Shown here piece after piece: positions 26,412-39,423 of a stretch of 59,250 nt of DNA. Each line of letters begins with the position of its first letter. The stretch's first letter is position 1. A model generated the notes under the pieces. It saw only the letters and a program-made list of their open reading frames with translations. It did not search any database and was not told the origin of the DNA. The translations under genes and the position numbers were made by a program. Source of the stretch: a virus. Location: positions 1 through 59,250 of IMG/VR virus record IMGVR_UViG_3300010885_034940; one strand, written 5' to 3'.

Positions 26412-26906
26412 ATGCATAAACATCATATAATACCGAAGTATATGGGCGGAAGCGATGATCCTTCTAACTTAATAGACCTGAGTGTAGAAGAACACGCCGA
26501 AGCCCATAAAAGATTATTTGAAGAGCACGGTCATTGGCAAGACTATCTCGCTTGGCAAGGACTATCCAAGATGATTCCGAGAGATGAATTGATACGTCAA
26601 GTTCAGTCTGAAGCAGCCAAAGAAAGATTGAAGAGGTTAGGAAATCCATTTACTGGAACACAAACCCAAGGAAATTTTGCCATTAATGAAGAGTTTAGGA
26701 AACAAGTTGCTTCATTGGCTCAAACTGATGAAGCAAAAGCGAAACGAAAACAAACATTTAAAAATATCAAGCACCAAAGTGGAGAGAAAAATTCAAACTT
26801 TGGTAAAAAGTGGATATATAATCAAGAGTTAAAAATTTCTAAATGTATTCCGAAGTCAGAAGAAATTTCAGATGGTTGGAGTGTAGGTAGAAAGTTGATA
26901 TGGTAG
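26412..26906 (+). CDS. HNH homing endonuclease
   Basis: The 164-aa protein begins MHKHHIIPKYMGGSDDPSNL and continues IDLSVEEHAEAHKRLFE, a compact HNH/treble-clef nuclease core. The C-terminus (NFGKKWIYNQELKISKCIPK ... GWSVGRKL) is the small DNA-binding repeat typical of phage homing endonucleases. It has its own late-type promoter and AAGGAG, and its stop lies at the 5' edge of the tmRNA acceptor piece. Confidence 0.82.
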   Translation: MHKHHIIPKYMGGSDDPSNLIDLSVEEHAEAHKRLFEEHGHWQDYLAWQGLSKMIPRDELIRQVQSEAAKERLKRLGNPFTGTQTQGNFAINEEFRKQVASLAQTDEAKAKRKQTFKNIKHQSGEKNSNFGKKWIYNQELKISKCIPKSEEISDGWSVGRKLIW

Positions 26907-29973: not shown

Positions 29974-29998
29974 GGGGAGCTTCGGCTCCCCTTTTTTT
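29974..29998. terminator. terminator between convergent genes
   Basis: The stem is GGGGAGC/GCTCCCC with a TTCG loop, then T7 on the plus strand. The minus-strand tract (TTCTTATT) is weaker, so it works mainly for gp32. Confidence 0.9.
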
Positions 29999-31829
29999 AT
30001 GCCCAACGATCTCTATTGAATGATGTCTTAAGAGATTTATCAATGTCATCAACAGAAGCTATTGGTAACATTGTATTTTGTTGCTGTACTGGTTGTTGTG
30101 CTGGAGGAGTTTGAGCTATATTGTTAATAACAACAGGCTGTGAAACTGATGCCAACATTGTTTTCGTATCAGCTATTGTAGCTGACTGAGTGGATATATC
30201 TTTTCCTGAAATATTTTTTGCTGGTGTTGATAACATAGCAGTTTCTGGTCCAGCCAATGGACCACCATAACTTGGTGCTGATTTAATATGTTTAGCAGGA
30301 GGAGTTGGAGTTGGAAGCGCAGAAGTTTCTTTACCAAATAACTTGTTGGCATAATCCATACGCTTTTTTGTGTGATATCCTTTAGAACGCTCATATTGTT
30401 TATCAACTATGTATGCAGCATCAGCAGGATTTTTTGCTTTGCGTAAACTATCTCCTGCATTTTTATATTCGCCATTATTCAGTTCCCAATTTACAAATTC
30501 TAGTTGCTCTTTAAAAGTTGATTGTCTAATATCTTTTTTATACTCGCTGTTAAAATTTGCTTGTCTAGCAGGATGCCATTGTGCAATCCCATAAGCCATT
30601 TTATTATCACCAAGCGCATCTGTTTTTAATCTAGATTCCATGTACAGATTACCAACAATACCAGCAGCCTGTGCTTTTGACCAACCTTTATCTTGAAAAA
30701 ATTTCATTGCTTCTTCAGAAGTGCCAGTTTCACTTATAGCTTTAAGTTCTTGATCAGTTGCTGATTTTCCTAAATTTTTTGAATCTGCTGCTGCTGGTGG
30801 TGTTGGCTCTTTAATTTCTTGAAAATATCTTTTTGCCATTGATTTCTCAAGATTACTTAATTCAGAACTATAAAGCCATGTTTGTTTACTGAATTCTCTT
30901 TTATCCATTGGTGTTGCATTCCAAGATGTTTCTAAAGCTTGTTTATAAGCAGGATACGAAGATTCAGGATTAAATCCTCTTCTTTCTTGCTCTTTTGTCA
31001 CATCCTTAACAACATTAATAACAGCTTTATTGCCACCTTCTTTCATACCTTCATTAATGCTCTGAGCAAGAGCTATTGTTGCTGCTAATGCAGGTACACG
31101 CTCTAGAGTTGCGATTGCTGATCTAGGAAGATATTTTAATAATTTTGCTACAAAAGCTAGAGTACCAGAACCAACGCCGCCACCATCGCCACCACTAGTT
31201 GCTTTAATTTCTTCAAGCGATTCAAAAATTTTCTTAAAGTTTTTTTCCATAGATTTCTTTAAAATCATAACAGGATCATCTTCACTAGGTTCATATGCTA
31301 ACCTTTTATAAAGAGCAGATCTTTCTTTCTTTGTTTCCACAGTTTTTACTGGTTCAGTTACGGTTCCTCTAGCTATTTTTGTTGTTGCGATTTCATAATC
31401 GCTAGTGATTCCGCCTTTTTTAGAAGCAAATGCTCCTGCCTTGCCGCCTGAAGTTAAGTAAGTTACTTGCTTTCCTTGTGGAGCTAATGGATCGAATCGA
31501 ACAGATTGAGCATTTTTGCCTTTGCCAATCATTAATACTCTAGGAGATAATCTTGTGTTTAAATACTCAACTCTTTGTTCAATTTTTTCAAGTTTTGAAA
31601 CAACTGTAGAAGTTACATGGCTTTGTGTTATTGCAAACGATTGTAAGTACGCAGTTATATTTGATAATTGGCTGTTTAAGCCATCCAATTTTTGTGAATT
31701 AAATTCATTTTGATCTTTTTTATTATCTAACTTTTGTTCTTTGCTTGGTTTTTTTAAAACATTTTTCAGATTCTTTACACTATTCGCTAAAGAATCTGAC
31801 AATCCTGATAGTACATTTACATATGCCAT
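29997..31829 (-). CDS. tail tape-measure candidate with tail lysozyme domain
   Basis: The 610-aa protein has an N-terminal coiled coil (about 1-115), a hydrophobic helical stretch near 225-265 (LAFVAKLLKYLPRSAIATLE ... ALAATIALAQ), and a lysozyme-like domain at about 355-495 (AAGIVGNLYMESRL, AYGIAQWHPARQ). The Glu in YMES is the likely catalytic residue. The gp5 homologue at 37747 has no lysozyme domain, so this protein supplies tail muralytic activity. It directly follows the tail chaperones and is near the length of T4 gp29, so it may be the tape measure; that part is inference. Confidence 0.7.
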   Translation of the reverse strand: MAYVNVLSGLSDSLANSVKNLKNVLKKPSKEQKLDNKKDQNEFNSQKLDGLNSQLSNITAYLQSFAITQSHVTSTVVSKLEKIEQRVEYLNTRLSPRVLMIGKGKNAQSVRFDPLAPQGKQVTYLTSGGKAGAFASKKGGITSDYEIATTKIARGTVTEPVKTVETKKERSALYKRLAYEPSEDDPVMILKKSMEKNFKKIFESLEEIKATSGGDGGGVGSGTLAFVAKLLKYLPRSAIATLERVPALAATIALAQSINEGMKEGGNKAVINVVKDVTKEQERRGFNPESSYPAYKQALETSWNATPMDKREFSKQTWLYSSELSNLEKSMAKRYFQEIKEPTPPAAADSKNLGKSATDQELKAISETGTSEEAMKFFQDKGWSKAQAAGIVGNLYMESRLKTDALGDNKMAYGIAQWHPARQANFNSEYKKDIRQSTFKEQLEFVNWELNNGEYKNAGDSLRKAKNPADAAYIVDKQYERSKGYHTKKRMDYANKLFGKETSALPTPTPPAKHIKSAPSYGGPLAGPETAMLSTPAKNISGKDISTQSATIADTKTMLASVSQPVVINNIAQTPPAQQPVQQQNTMLPIASVDDIDKSLKTSFNRDRWA

Positions 31830-31830
31830 T

Positions 31831-32025
31831 TTATCTTCTTACCGTTTGTTGCCTTAATTTAATCTTTTCGTTTTCTTCTTTAATATGATTCGTCAACAAA
31901 GTAACATAAACTTGCCTTTCCCATGCAATCATACTCTCTAAGTCATTATATGCATATTTGTGGTGCTGCATTAATGCAAAGTTAGTTTCAATAAAATTTT
32001 TCAAAGAATCATAACCAAAGCTCAA
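31831..32025 (-). CDS. 64-aa tail-chaperone extension ORF (gp51 position)
   Basis: The ORF (SFGYDSLKNFIETNFALMQH and onward) overlaps the gp26 stop in the -1 frame. It has only a TTG start and no ribosome site. It lies where T4 has gp51. A -1 frameshift at the T7 run just upstream would fuse it to gp26 (about 305 aa), as in G/GT-type tail chaperones. Independent initiation at TTG is the alternative. Confidence 0.65.
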   Translation of the reverse strand: MSFGYDSLKNFIETNFALMQHHKYAYNDLESMIAWERQVYVTLLTNHIKEENEKIKLRQQTVRR

Positions 32026-32747
32026 ATAAAAAAACTGTATAGGTTCTCCGCATAAATTAAATGATCGTTTTCACATTTTTTGCATTTTGTAGTTTCTTGT
32101 AAAGTAACTTTTGGAGAAGTTACAAAAAATTGCAATATACTTTCTAACTGATCAGTTGTTAAATCACCCAAAAATTTTTCAAAATCTTCGTTATTAAACT
32201 GAGAGCGATCATAAATTTGATCGGAATCGAATATGTAATCAACATAATTTGAAACGAATTTAATTGAATCACTTAATACGTTATCAGAAATATTTTTAGC
32301 AATACTATCCAGTACTGGATATTTCATCTTTATTCCAATAGAATCAGATAACATAATAATGTTTTTATGATTTTGTGCTACTTCATATTTAATATTATTC
32401 AGGTCTAATTCATACTCGTTAATTAATCCGCATATTTCTTCTGAATCTTTTAATTTTTTCTCACATTTAAAATTTAATGGAATTTTTTCTCCAATAGATT
32501 TTATTCTTAAGTGAACAAAAAACATTTCAATATCAAACATCGGGAGAGACGCTACATCTATTTCGTCAATACAGCAGTTAGTTATAATTTGTTTTATTGC
32601 ATTAAATATTGCTGCGTCATCTTCTGATTCTTTTGCAATCAAAAGTATCTTTTCTTCTTTTACTAAAAATGGTCTGAATCTAATTGCTTTGTCAAGAGAT
32701 TTCAGATACACTTCAAATATTGGCTGTTGAATTATCGGTAATGCCAT
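32022..32747 (-). CDS. 26: gp26-like baseplate hub / tail assembly chaperone
   Basis: The 241-aa protein has IFEVYLKSLDKAIRFRPFLV, KEEKILLIAKESEDDAAI and a C-terminal CKKCENDHLIYAENLYSFF, features of the T4 baseplate (gp26) family. In T4, gp26 and gp51 help build the hub on the tape measure. Its end overlaps the 64-aa ORF at a slippery run. Confidence 0.75.
   Translation of the reverse strand: MALPIIQQPIFEVYLKSLDKAIRFRPFLVKEEKILLIAKESEDDAAIFNAIKQIITNCCIDEIDVASLPMFDIEMFFVHLRIKSIGEKIPLNFKCEKKLKDSEEICGLINEYELDLNNIKYEVAQNHKNIIMLSDSIGIKMKYPVLDSIAKNISDNVLSDSIKFVSNYVDYIFDSDQIYDRSQFNNEDFEKFLGDLTTDQLESILQFFVTSPKVTLQETTKCKKCENDHLIYAENLYSFFI
32028..32034 (-). other. candidate -1 frameshift site T TTT TTT
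   Basis: On the minus strand the gp26 frame reads AGT TTT TTT ATT TGA. A one-base slip gives TAT TTG AGC and enters the 64-aa ORF without meeting a stop. A Shine-Dalgarno-like GGAG ends 11 nt before the run, like the stimulator upstream of the dnaX slip site. Confidence 0.55.
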
Positions 32748-32761
32748 AATCTAACCTCTTT

Positions 32762-33502
32762 TCATTTAAAAATATTTTTAATTCCGTCTAATATGTCCTT
32801 AACATCATCTTTTATCGGTTTATTTTTTTCTTGTTTTACAGAATTGATGACATCTTTATCAGCTCTTGTCCATTTATAATATTTAAAAACAACCGCAAGT
32901 CTATGTATTCCTTCACTATCTCCCCAATTCAATGGAAGAGCTTGTATAGCTATAGGAAAAGCCTGAAGTAATGCACAACGATAAGGTATGTTATTTTCTC
33001 CACTTTCTTTAAACTGATCAATGACTATCGTTGAAAGATAACTATCTCTATATGCAACATGGGATGCACCATCATTTATTATTGAATCTGTGGAATAATA
33101 ACCTGTCGGTATTATACTCTGCATCCAATCCTCAAAATATTTCTTTTCCCACATATCTGAAGTGCAAAGGAATGTTAAAGTAATATCGCTATATGATGGT
33201 GTTGTTGCAACATGCCAAGAAGGACCATAAACTTTAGATTCAAGGGTATTAACCGTAAATCCTGGCAATTCTGTAGCCTCACACTGTAGAGATAGATATC
33301 TAGAATCGTCTAAACGAGGAGCAGTAACAACAACTTCTTCTAAAGTTCCGTCACTACTAACTTCTTTATTTGGATCTCCCTTTACCTCAAATTTTTGCCT
33401 TGCGCTGCTGCTTCTGAATATCTGAACTTGAAACTTTGAGGGTTTAGCCAAATCGCCGTGTTTTGCTATATGTGATCTAAATTTATCTGGTGAAAATGTC
33501 AT
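32762..33502 (-). CDS. 54: gp54-like baseplate tail-tube initiator (gp19 fold)
   Basis: The 246-aa protein has the tail-tube family pattern LSLQCEATELPGFTVNTLES, KVYGPSWHVATTPSYSDI, LTFLCTSDMWEKKYFEDWM and SYLSTIVIDQF. It is longer than a plain gp19 tube subunit and lies with baseplate genes, which fits gp54. It overlaps the next upstream gene by 4 nt. Confidence 0.65.
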   Translation of the reverse strand: MTFSPDKFRSHIAKHGDLAKPSKFQVQIFRSSSARQKFEVKGDPNKEVSSDGTLEEVVVTAPRLDDSRYLSLQCEATELPGFTVNTLESKVYGPSWHVATTPSYSDITLTFLCTSDMWEKKYFEDWMQSIIPTGYYSTDSIINDGASHVAYRDSYLSTIVIDQFKESGENNIPYRCALLQAFPIAIQALPLNWGDSEGIHRLAVVFKYYKWTRADKDVINSVKQEKNKPIKDDVKDILDGIKNIFK

Positions 33503-36456: not shown

Positions 36457-37747
36457 AACTATTGCTCCTGGTATGTATACATCTAAAGACTTTGATGTTA
36501 AATCGCTAGATTTAATCAATTCTGCGGGTCAAACAATATCATTAAAAAATATAATGGTGGAATTAAAGATACAGCAAAGTATTGATGCTATGGTTATGTT
36601 TGGTACTATACTTGTTGTTGATGGTAACGATTTATTTAATTCTTTTTATTTAAATGGGAATGAATATCTTAGAATCAGGATTGATCAGCCAACATTAGGA
36701 ATACCATTAGAGAAACTTTTTAGAGTTTATAAAGTAAGTGATAGAAGAAATAACAATAATGCTGGTTCGAAGTATATTATATATTTCACTAGCGATGAAT
36801 TAATGATATCAAACACAACTCTAGTCAGTAAGGCATATAAAAATAGGAAAACATCGGAAATAGTTTTTGATATATTAAAAAGTTTTCTATTAGTAAGCGA
36901 TAAAAAGATTTCAAAATTAGAAAATACAACTGGAGTTCATAATTTTATAGTTCCAAATTATAGACCATTTGAAGCAATTAACTGGGCTGTTTCTAGATCA
37001 TACAGTGTAACACCAAGTTTTTGTTATTATTTCTATGAAAACACAAAGGGATTTGAATTTATTTCTTTACAAAGCCTTTATAAAAAATCAGTAACAAAAG
37101 AATTAATTTGTGATATGAAAGGAATTAACAAAGAACCAAATTTACCAGTAGATATTGCTAGAAATAAAAATTCTTTCGAAAATTTAACAATCATTAACGA
37201 CTTTGATATGATTGCATCTTCTGGAAGTGGAGCATTTGCATCTAAATTATTATCTGTAAATCTATATTCACAACAGTTTAAATATAATGATTACAGTATC
37301 TTGACTGCACAAAATCAAAAGAGATTGCTGAATAATTATTCACCTATTAATGATCCTAGATTAATGACGAGTTATCTTGCAAATTATAAAACATATATTT
37401 CTACAAATGATACTGCAACAGAAAAAGAAAATGCCGTCGACAAATGGCTTATGAATAGACAACTACATAAAAACCTTATTAATAATTTTAGAGTTCGCGG
37501 TATAATTTCTGGTGATATAACGATGAATGTTGGTGATATTGTTAATTTAACATTCCCAAAATATGTAGCAGCAGATGCAAAGGGAAAACAATATGATGAA
37601 TTTAGATCAGGAAAATATCTAGTTGCTGATATTACCCATGTCTTCAAAAGTTCAGGAATTTTTGAATCTGTAGTTGAATTAACATCTGATTCATATGCAT
37701 CTCAACTTCCTTCTGGTAGAAACGTATTTAATAAAGTAGCTTCATAA
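36449..37747 (+). CDS. 27: gp27-like baseplate hub protein
   Basis: The 432-aa protein starts MAETIAPGMYTSKDFDVKSL. Ring-forming hub domain features include LKNIMVELKIQQSIDAMVMF and GTILVVDGNDLFNSF, then HNFIVPNYRPFEAINWAVSR and GDIVNLTFPKY. Length and place directly before gp5 fit the T4 gp27 hub. It overlaps gp5 by 1 nt. Confidence 0.75.
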   Translation: MAETIAPGMYTSKDFDVKSLDLINSAGQTISLKNIMVELKIQQSIDAMVMFGTILVVDGNDLFNSFYLNGNEYLRIRIDQPTLGIPLEKLFRVYKVSDRRNNNNAGSKYIIYFTSDELMISNTTLVSKAYKNRKTSEIVFDILKSFLLVSDKKISKLENTTGVHNFIVPNYRPFEAINWAVSRSYSVTPSFCYYFYENTKGFEFISLQSLYKKSVTKELICDMKGINKEPNLPVDIARNKNSFENLTIINDFDMIASSGSGAFASKLLSVNLYSQQFKYNDYSILTAQNQKRLLNNYSPINDPRLMTSYLANYKTYISTNDTATEKENAVDKWLMNRQLHKNLINNFRVRGIISGDITMNVGDIVNLTFPKYVAADAKGKQYDEFRSGKYLVADITHVFKSSGIFESVVELTSDSYASQLPSGRNVFNKVAS

Positions 37748-39423
37748 TGCCACAAGAAAGATATTCAATAGGTAGGGAAGGATTTATCTGGTTTATTGGT
37801 GTGGTTGAAAGCCGCAACGATCCAGATAAACTTGGGCGCGTTCGTGTGAGATGTTTTGGTTGGCATACTGATAACAAAGAAATGATCCCAACAGATTCTT
37901 TGCCTTGGGCATTCATAACACAGTCTCCAAACATTCCAGCTTCATATACTGCAAAAGAAGGAGATGTAGTTTTTGGATTTTTCCTTGATGCAGAATCTGC
38001 ACAAAATCCAGTTGTTGTTGGAGTTATCCCAGGAATTCCTGTTACAAAACCAGATTATACTAAAGGATTTAGTGATCCAAGAACATCATTCTCAGATCAA
38101 CCAACAACTGAACCATATCCGCTAAAATCTAAATTAGGCGAGCCAACATTATCTAGACTATCAAGAAATAAACCAACCAGCACAATAATAGAAAAACGTA
38201 GAAAAAATTTAAAGAAGGATATAAAAACTGCTAGAGGTATAACTTGGAATGAGCCAACGCCAACTTTTTCTCCTGTATACCCATTTAATTACGCTCATGA
38301 AACTGAATCTGGACATGCATTTGAAATGGATGATACTCCAGGAAATGAACGAGTCCAGTTAGCACATAAAACTGGGGCTTTTATTGAATTTGATGCTGAT
38401 GGGAATAGAATTGAAAAAGTAATAAAAGATAACTATACTGTTATAATGGGAAAAAACAATGTGTATGTTGGTGGTAGATGCGCCATAACTATTGAGGGCG
38501 ATTGTAACATGAAAGTTACAGGTAAATTTACATTGGAAGCCGCAGAAATAAATTTAAATGCTTCTGCTGGAACCTCCTCTGGTAAAGTAAATGTGAAAGG
38601 TGGTAAAATCAGTGTAGAGTCAGAAAATACAACAAACATCAAAGCAGGTAGTTCTGTTAAAGTTGGAACAGAAGGAGTACTCAGCCTATCTGGTGGAAGT
38701 ACAACTCTTGCAGGAGGAGATGTTTCTATACCCGCTGCAGCTGTAATGATACAAGAAGGATCTGCCACTGAACCAGAATCTGTAGAACTTGGGTTGGAAG
38801 AAGTATCCGTAACATCTAAAAAGATAGGAACTGAAAGTGAACTTTCATCCACACTAAAGGCTACTGTTTCTAAAGTTGGAGATGCTATTGAAACGATTAA
38901 AGACAAAATAGATTCAGCTACGGATACAGTAACTGGTGCTATTGGTAAAATCCAAGAAACAGTATCAAAGGAATTAGCACCAGTAACTGAATTTATAAGT
39001 AAGGTCACAGATATAATGAAAGATGCAGATAAACTATACAATCAGATATCTAATAAATTACAGCCTGTTGAGAAATTAATAGGTAAAGAAATATTCCCGA
39101 AAACAAATTTTATTACTAATGCACTCGGAGAACTTGATAAATTCTCAACAAAACTTGAGAAGATATATGACCCATTGATTGACTTAAATGACAGAGTTGT
39201 AGAATTAAACAACGAAATACACGATAAAATTGATAATATTGCAGAACCACTTAATGAATTAAATTATAGAATGCATCAACTCAATAGTACCTTTAACTTA
39301 TCTTCAACTGATAAACAGATACCAGATCTTAGCTCAAGACTATCAGAATCTCTACCAGCAGATACTGATATCTACGTTGACTATGAGACACTATATTCAC
39401 TAGAACAAATAGAGTTAGAATAA
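37747..39423 (+). CDS. 5: gp5-like spike without lysozyme domain
   Basis: The 558-aa protein has an OB-fold (FIWFIGVVESRNDPDKLGRV, RVRCFGWHT), then the spike start (HETESGHAFEMDDTPGNERV, KTGAFIEFDADGNR) and beta-helix repeats to about residue 340. A long helical C-terminal extension (about 370-530) is rich in amphipathic repeats. The T4 lysozyme insert is missing. The helical tail is unusual for gp5 and may bind the next two proteins. Confidence 0.85.
   Translation: MPQERYSIGREGFIWFIGVVESRNDPDKLGRVRVRCFGWHTDNKEMIPTDSLPWAFITQSPNIPASYTAKEGDVVFGFFLDAESAQNPVVVGVIPGIPVTKPDYTKGFSDPRTSFSDQPTTEPYPLKSKLGEPTLSRLSRNKPTSTIIEKRRKNLKKDIKTARGITWNEPTPTFSPVYPFNYAHETESGHAFEMDDTPGNERVQLAHKTGAFIEFDADGNRIEKVIKDNYTVIMGKNNVYVGGRCAITIEGDCNMKVTGKFTLEAAEINLNASAGTSSGKVNVKGGKISVESENTTNIKAGSSVKVGTEGVLSLSGGSTTLAGGDVSIPAAAVMIQEGSATEPESVELGLEEVSVTSKKIGTESELSSTLKATVSKVGDAIETIKDKIDSATDTVTGAIGKIQETVSKELAPVTEFISKVTDIMKDADKLYNQISNKLQPVEKLIGKEIFPKTNFITNALGELDKFSTKLEKIYDPLIDLNDRVVELNNEIHDKIDNIAEPLNELNYRMHQLNSTFNLSSTDKQIPDLSSRLSESLPADTDIYVDYETLYSLEQIELE

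Follow-up and report, generated by a model that had tools for sequence, protein, structure and literature searches.

The locus considered here raises the question of whether a gp26-like gene and the 64-aa reading frame that follows it on the same strand are two separate genes, or a single one whose second part is reached by ribosomes that slip back one base. The window, i.e. the whole 59,250-nt stretch of the IMG/VR virus record IMGVR_UViG_3300010885_034940 that was analysed, had been read in an initial annotation, made from the letters alone, as carrying a probable programmed frameshift of the lambda G/GT type in a T4-type gp26/gp51 locus. Judging from the window and its relatives, we consider it highly probable that gp26 and the 64-aa frame, hereafter ORF2, form one tail assembly chaperone (TAC) locus, expressed through a programmed -1 frameshift as a short and a long form.

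The gp26-ORF2 junction

On the minus strand the gp26 frame ends AGT TTT TTT ATT TGA, and a -1 slip on T TTT TTT would carry translation into TAT TTG AGC and on through 65 codons as far as the TAA (31833-31831), so that the passage into the 64-aa frame proposed in the initial annotation is confirmed by the sequence. The predicted fusion, TAC-NC, comprises 240 + 65 = 305 aa, and its junction peptide contains ...NLYSFFYLSFGYDSLK.... The further claim that the 64-aa frame has neither an ATG nor a ribosome site holds in part: no Shine-Dalgarno (SD) element precedes the TTG at the gp26 stop at normal spacing in the window sequence, but this TTG (32025-32023) overlaps the stop as TTGA (32025-32022), and ORF2 has an internal in-frame ATG at codon 20 (31971-31969).

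Table 1. Features of the gp26-ORF2 locus, in positions of the window
Feature	Coordinates	Strand	Remarks
gp26-like gene, putative TAC-N (tail assembly chaperone short form)	32022..32747	-	241 aa
Slippery heptamer T TTT TTT	32028..32034	-	tRNA-Phe would occupy P and A sites
GGAG, SD-like candidate stimulator	32046..32049	-	11 nt 5' of heptamer
gp26 stop TGA	32022..32024	-	one codon past slip site
-1 frame ORF2, putative TAC-C	31831..32028	-	C-terminal domain of predicted frameshift product
Probable tape-measure gene	29997..31829	-	downstream; 610 aa, tail lysozyme domain
Tail tube / tube initiator gene	32762..33502	-	upstream context; phrog_45 tail tube, E 1e-31

The pair directly precedes a probable tape-measure gene, as had been suggested, since the product of 29997-31829 matches phrog_9570 ('tail length tape measure protein', E 5.5e-34); its tail lysozyme domain is PF18013 (E 1.7e-31). 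The order of neighbours with the tail tube / tube initiator gene is the same in pelagiphages. Elsewhere in the window, a gp5-like spike protein (37747-39423, +) has a Gp5_OB domain and no lysozyme domain match in Pfam; in T4, the lysozyme sits in gp5. A 164-aa ORF at 26412-26906 (+), starting MHKHHIIPKYMGGSDDPSNLIDL, resembles by eye an HNH-type homing endonuclease.

In profile comparisons, the gp26 product matches Pfam PF12322 (T4_baseplate, E 2e-51) and PHROG 150 (phrog_150, E 4e-57), and aligns with T4 gp26 over 198 columns, nearly its whole length (hhalign E 8e-15). ORF2 matches PHROG 634 (phrog_634, 'baseplate hub assembly catalyst', E 1.7e-21) and also columns 238-281 of phrog_150, and in cyanophages such frames are labelled 'gp51 baseplate hub assembly catalyst'. 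T4 gp51 itself has PF12322 over residues 1-201 and matches phrog_150 up to column 280, while its residues 208-244 align with ORF2 (hhalign E 2e-4); T4 gp51 is thus a gp26 domain followed by an ORF2-like tail and is built like the predicted long form, which supports the G/GT-type reading of this gp26/gp51 locus. A search of solved structures with gp26 and ORF2 gave no meaningful match, including no solved chaperone for gp26, and weak coiled-coil matches to ORF2 were taken as helix noise. The predicted model of gp26 (pLDDT 89) matched only gp26/gp51-family and other viral models. Between the window and its nearest full-length relative (L001, ~51% identity in gp26), ORF2 is under purifying selection, with a pN of 0.19 vs a pS of 0.70.

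How much weight the T-run itself can bear depends on how often such runs occur. The window has 36% GC, and its ORFs of at least 150 aa hold 6 in-frame TTTTTT heptamers in 15,882 codons; therefore ~0.006 would be expected in the ~15-codon stretch that is open in both frames; for XXXYYY heptamers of any kind the expectation over the same doubly open stretch is ~0.12. On the window sequence alone the frameshift signal is suggestive but not decisive, and the locus was therefore compared with its relatives.

The slip site among relatives

Relatives were drawn from annotated phages and viral contigs, and 164 loci were left once identical junctions had been removed. Six divergent control loci (T4-proper, Ackermannviridae and Vibrio K361) were set aside and 158 were scored. 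The contig loci had been gathered by homology to gp26 or ORF2, independently of the T-run, and their choice was thus not biased towards the signal.

An alignment of relatives for a kept T-run and frame offset had been named in the initial annotation as a check on the frameshift, and both are kept: T TTT TT[T/C/A] stands in frame towards the end of gp26 in all 158 distinct relatives, and ORF2 lies in the -1 frame in each of the 157 where it could be matched. The last base of the heptamer is C in 103 relatives, T in 46 and A in 9, and its conservation is the same among 105 representatives with less than 75% nucleotide identity. The heptamer falls within a stretch open in both frames in each of the 151 loci scored for this feature. 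The 0-frame stop follows within 0-3 codons in 151/158 and 8 codons downstream in the other 7. The codon 5' of the heptamer always ends in T (AGT, AAT, GAT or TCT, with single cases of CGT, GGT and GCT), and the first Phe at the site is always TTT, vs a TTC share of 27% among Phe codons in gene bodies. Codon use at the site is thus far from that in gene bodies; its naive log10 P is about -53, which is not a real probability because the loci are related and hence not independent. The isolates that keep the site include members of Kyanoviridae, pelagiphages, Straboviridae (Aeh1, ValKK3, LPCS28) and Pootjesviridae, as well as Caulobacter Cr30, Stenotrophomonas DLP_6 and Bhz51, Xanthomonas X1 and Pseudomonas pf16. 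The comparative evidence settles, at the level of sequence, that the frameshift signal is real.

Conservation on this scale bears on two readings in which the ribosome would play no part. One is that the T homopolymer was misread or misassembled, which has split what is truly one continuous frame of 305 aa; such runs are error-prone, and the only identical copy of the locus (L002) is a metagenomic contig. This reading is refuted by conservation, and we regard it as vanishingly improbable: the same offset and T-run recur in isolates that were sequenced independently as well as in well over 100 contigs, the 0-frame stop remains close to the site, and no single-piece in-frame fusion spanning the 305-aa query was found among the 60 phage records listed. 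The other is that the fusion is made by slippage of RNA polymerase on the T-run, which is seven T long in the window and would lead to the same protein. However, in 112/158 relatives a C or A interrupts the run after six T, a length that is short for polymerase slippage, and the T TTT TTY register always fits the ribosomal X XXY YYZ rule, for which RNA polymerase would have no need; it is thus extremely unlikely that transcription, rather than the ribosome, makes the fusion.

A few relatives keep the second frame in another setting. In the Ackermannviridae loci compared (L014, L017, L018, L182, L186) a -1 ORF2 is kept after gp26 and the canonical T6 heptamer is absent, the site reading ATT TTC ATT TAA in CBA120, Limestone, UPM 2146 and phiEa2809, and CTT TTT CAA TAA in Kuja. 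In Vibrio K361 and K444 (L011, L189), too, a -1 ORF2 is kept and the T6 heptamer is lacking. A long form or a free C-terminal domain in these phages would need a weaker single-codon slip, or an ATG/ATT start near the stop. In Aeromonas phage Aeh1 (L010), the gp51-like C-terminal ORF at 1954-2126 is unannotated in the public record, with the slip site and the -1 frame intact.

Start codons, candidate stimulators and the proposed mechanism

The conserved signal has to be weighed against the possibility that ORF2 is a separate gene, translated by termination-reinitiation at the TTG of the TTGA overlap or from the internal ATG at codon 20. This is what database annotators assume when they record 'gp51'; free gp51 genes are annotated in cyanophage and pelagiphage records, both start codons are present in the window, and an ATG, GTG or TTG is found close to the stop in about a quarter of relatives, in some as TAATG. 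Translation of a free 64-aa protein could in principle begin at the TTG overlapping the stop. However, the start codon is not conserved: 118/158 relatives have no ATG, GTG or TTG from -10 to +17 nt around the gp26 stop, and L001, the closest full-length relative, has CTG in place of the window's TTG. Relatives with a start of their own and no slippery run, which the initial annotation had set against its own proposal, are not what the comparison of the 158 loci brought out. The gp51 starts chosen by annotators vary from phage to phage. Moreover, selection acts at the protein level on the -1 frame 5' of the internal ATG, itself a conserved codon: from the slip site to that ATG this frame is conserved with codon periodicity and free of stops in 94/94 loci, whereas a stop interrupts the 0 frame in 94/94. 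A separate gene would also leave the invariant T6 run and the invariant -1 offset without a reason. Since an ATG, GTG or TTG lies close to the gp26 stop in only 40 relatives, the pattern cannot be put down to reinitiation or to a separate gene, and we hold independent translation of ORF2 to be very unlikely. It is also unlikely, if somewhat less so, that TTG reinitiation adds a low level of free 64-aa protein to the short and long chaperones; if it did, the locus would yield three products with distinct roles.

Returning to the frameshift, the GGAG that had been reported 11 nt upstream of the slip site is indeed present at 32049-32046, and an SD-like motif (GGAGG, GGAG, GAGG, AGGA or AAGG) precedes the heptamer in 127 of the 151 relatives scored, mostly by 8-10 nt. 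Glu codons at the SD-like position in relatives are GAG in 57% of cases vs 22% in gene bodies. Downstream RNA structure was not significant in the window (z -0.13), and no consensus downstream structure common to relatives was found in 42 sequences. Just after the slip site, relatives (L001-L179) fold on average slightly more stably than shuffled sequence, with a mean z of about -1.2 vs ~0 at most control offsets.

It can be hypothesized that most ribosomes would stop at the gp26 TGA and give the short form TAC-N, of 241 aa. We infer that a minority would slip back one base, with two tRNA-Phe on T TTT TTT, and that this slippage is probably aided by pairing of the GGAG with 16S rRNA and by the close stop codon. 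Slipped ribosomes would then read on in the -1 frame to produce the 305-aa TAC-NC. By analogy with lambda gpG/gpGT, the short and long forms may coat or recruit the adjacent tape-measure protein in tail assembly.

Relation to known chaperone loci

In lambda, gpG and gpGT are a short and a long chaperone, produced through a -1 slip shortly before the first gene ends and encoded beside the tape-measure gene, and the locus described here would share all three traits. It differs in its slip sequence, which in lambda is GGGAAAG, and no sequence homology to the lambda proteins was detected. In Escherichia coli dnaX the slip site, A AAA AAG, is preceded at ~10 nt by an SD-like element and followed by a strong hairpin. 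The GGAG in the window, 11 nt before the heptamer and with its motif common in relatives, resembles the former element, but the slip site is a different one, a stable downstream stem-loop is not supported, and the dnaX frameshift product, unlike the one predicted here, is shorter than the unshifted protein.

Closer parallels come from T4-like phages. In T4, short gp26 and long gp51 are encoded as separate genes with no frameshift, gp51 having its own gene on the strand opposite to gp26. Vladimirov, Gautam and Davidson (Virology 2022;566:9-15) reportedly found the frameshift kept in several T4-like groups, the T4 group using genes 26 and 51 instead. A passage of PMC12846349 describes poly-T -1 frameshift signals in the TAC-N genes of T4-like phages, crediting Vladimirov et al. 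2022, and one in PMC10885494 credits the same work with the finding that the pair in some T4-like phages consists instead of one short gene and one longer, fused gene. In the TAC locus of the Vandenendeviridae (Pseudomonas phage Adele), TAC-N ends in a T-rich site with a conserved -1 frameshift, and the ORF downstream of it is annotated separately in databases (PMC12846349); these phages belong to another family and use a GTTTTT motif.

The initial annotation did not recall a frameshift of this kind being described, a statement that has to be given up, as TAC genes of T4-like phages were described by Vladimirov et al. 2022, as cited in the passages of PMC10885494 and PMC12846349. Because that work, according to these passages, covered T4-like TACs, the present locus falls within a described kind, and it shares with the published members the gene family, the position before the tape-measure gene, the poly-T -1 slip and the predicted short and long forms. 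It differs in its divergence, the nearest full-length relative being ~51% identical in gp26. The locus is thus a new, divergent member of the T4-like TAC kind, with a frameshift that is real as a signal and, to judge from its sequence conservation, very probably functional.

In the records that we inspected, the two frames stand as separate genes, 'baseplate hub' and 'baseplate hub assembly catalyst', whose starts differ, and the T-run offers a simple signature by which such annotations may be corrected. Its near-perfect conservation in more than 150 relatives lends support to the view, already published, that gp26 and gp51 are a tail assembly chaperone pair.
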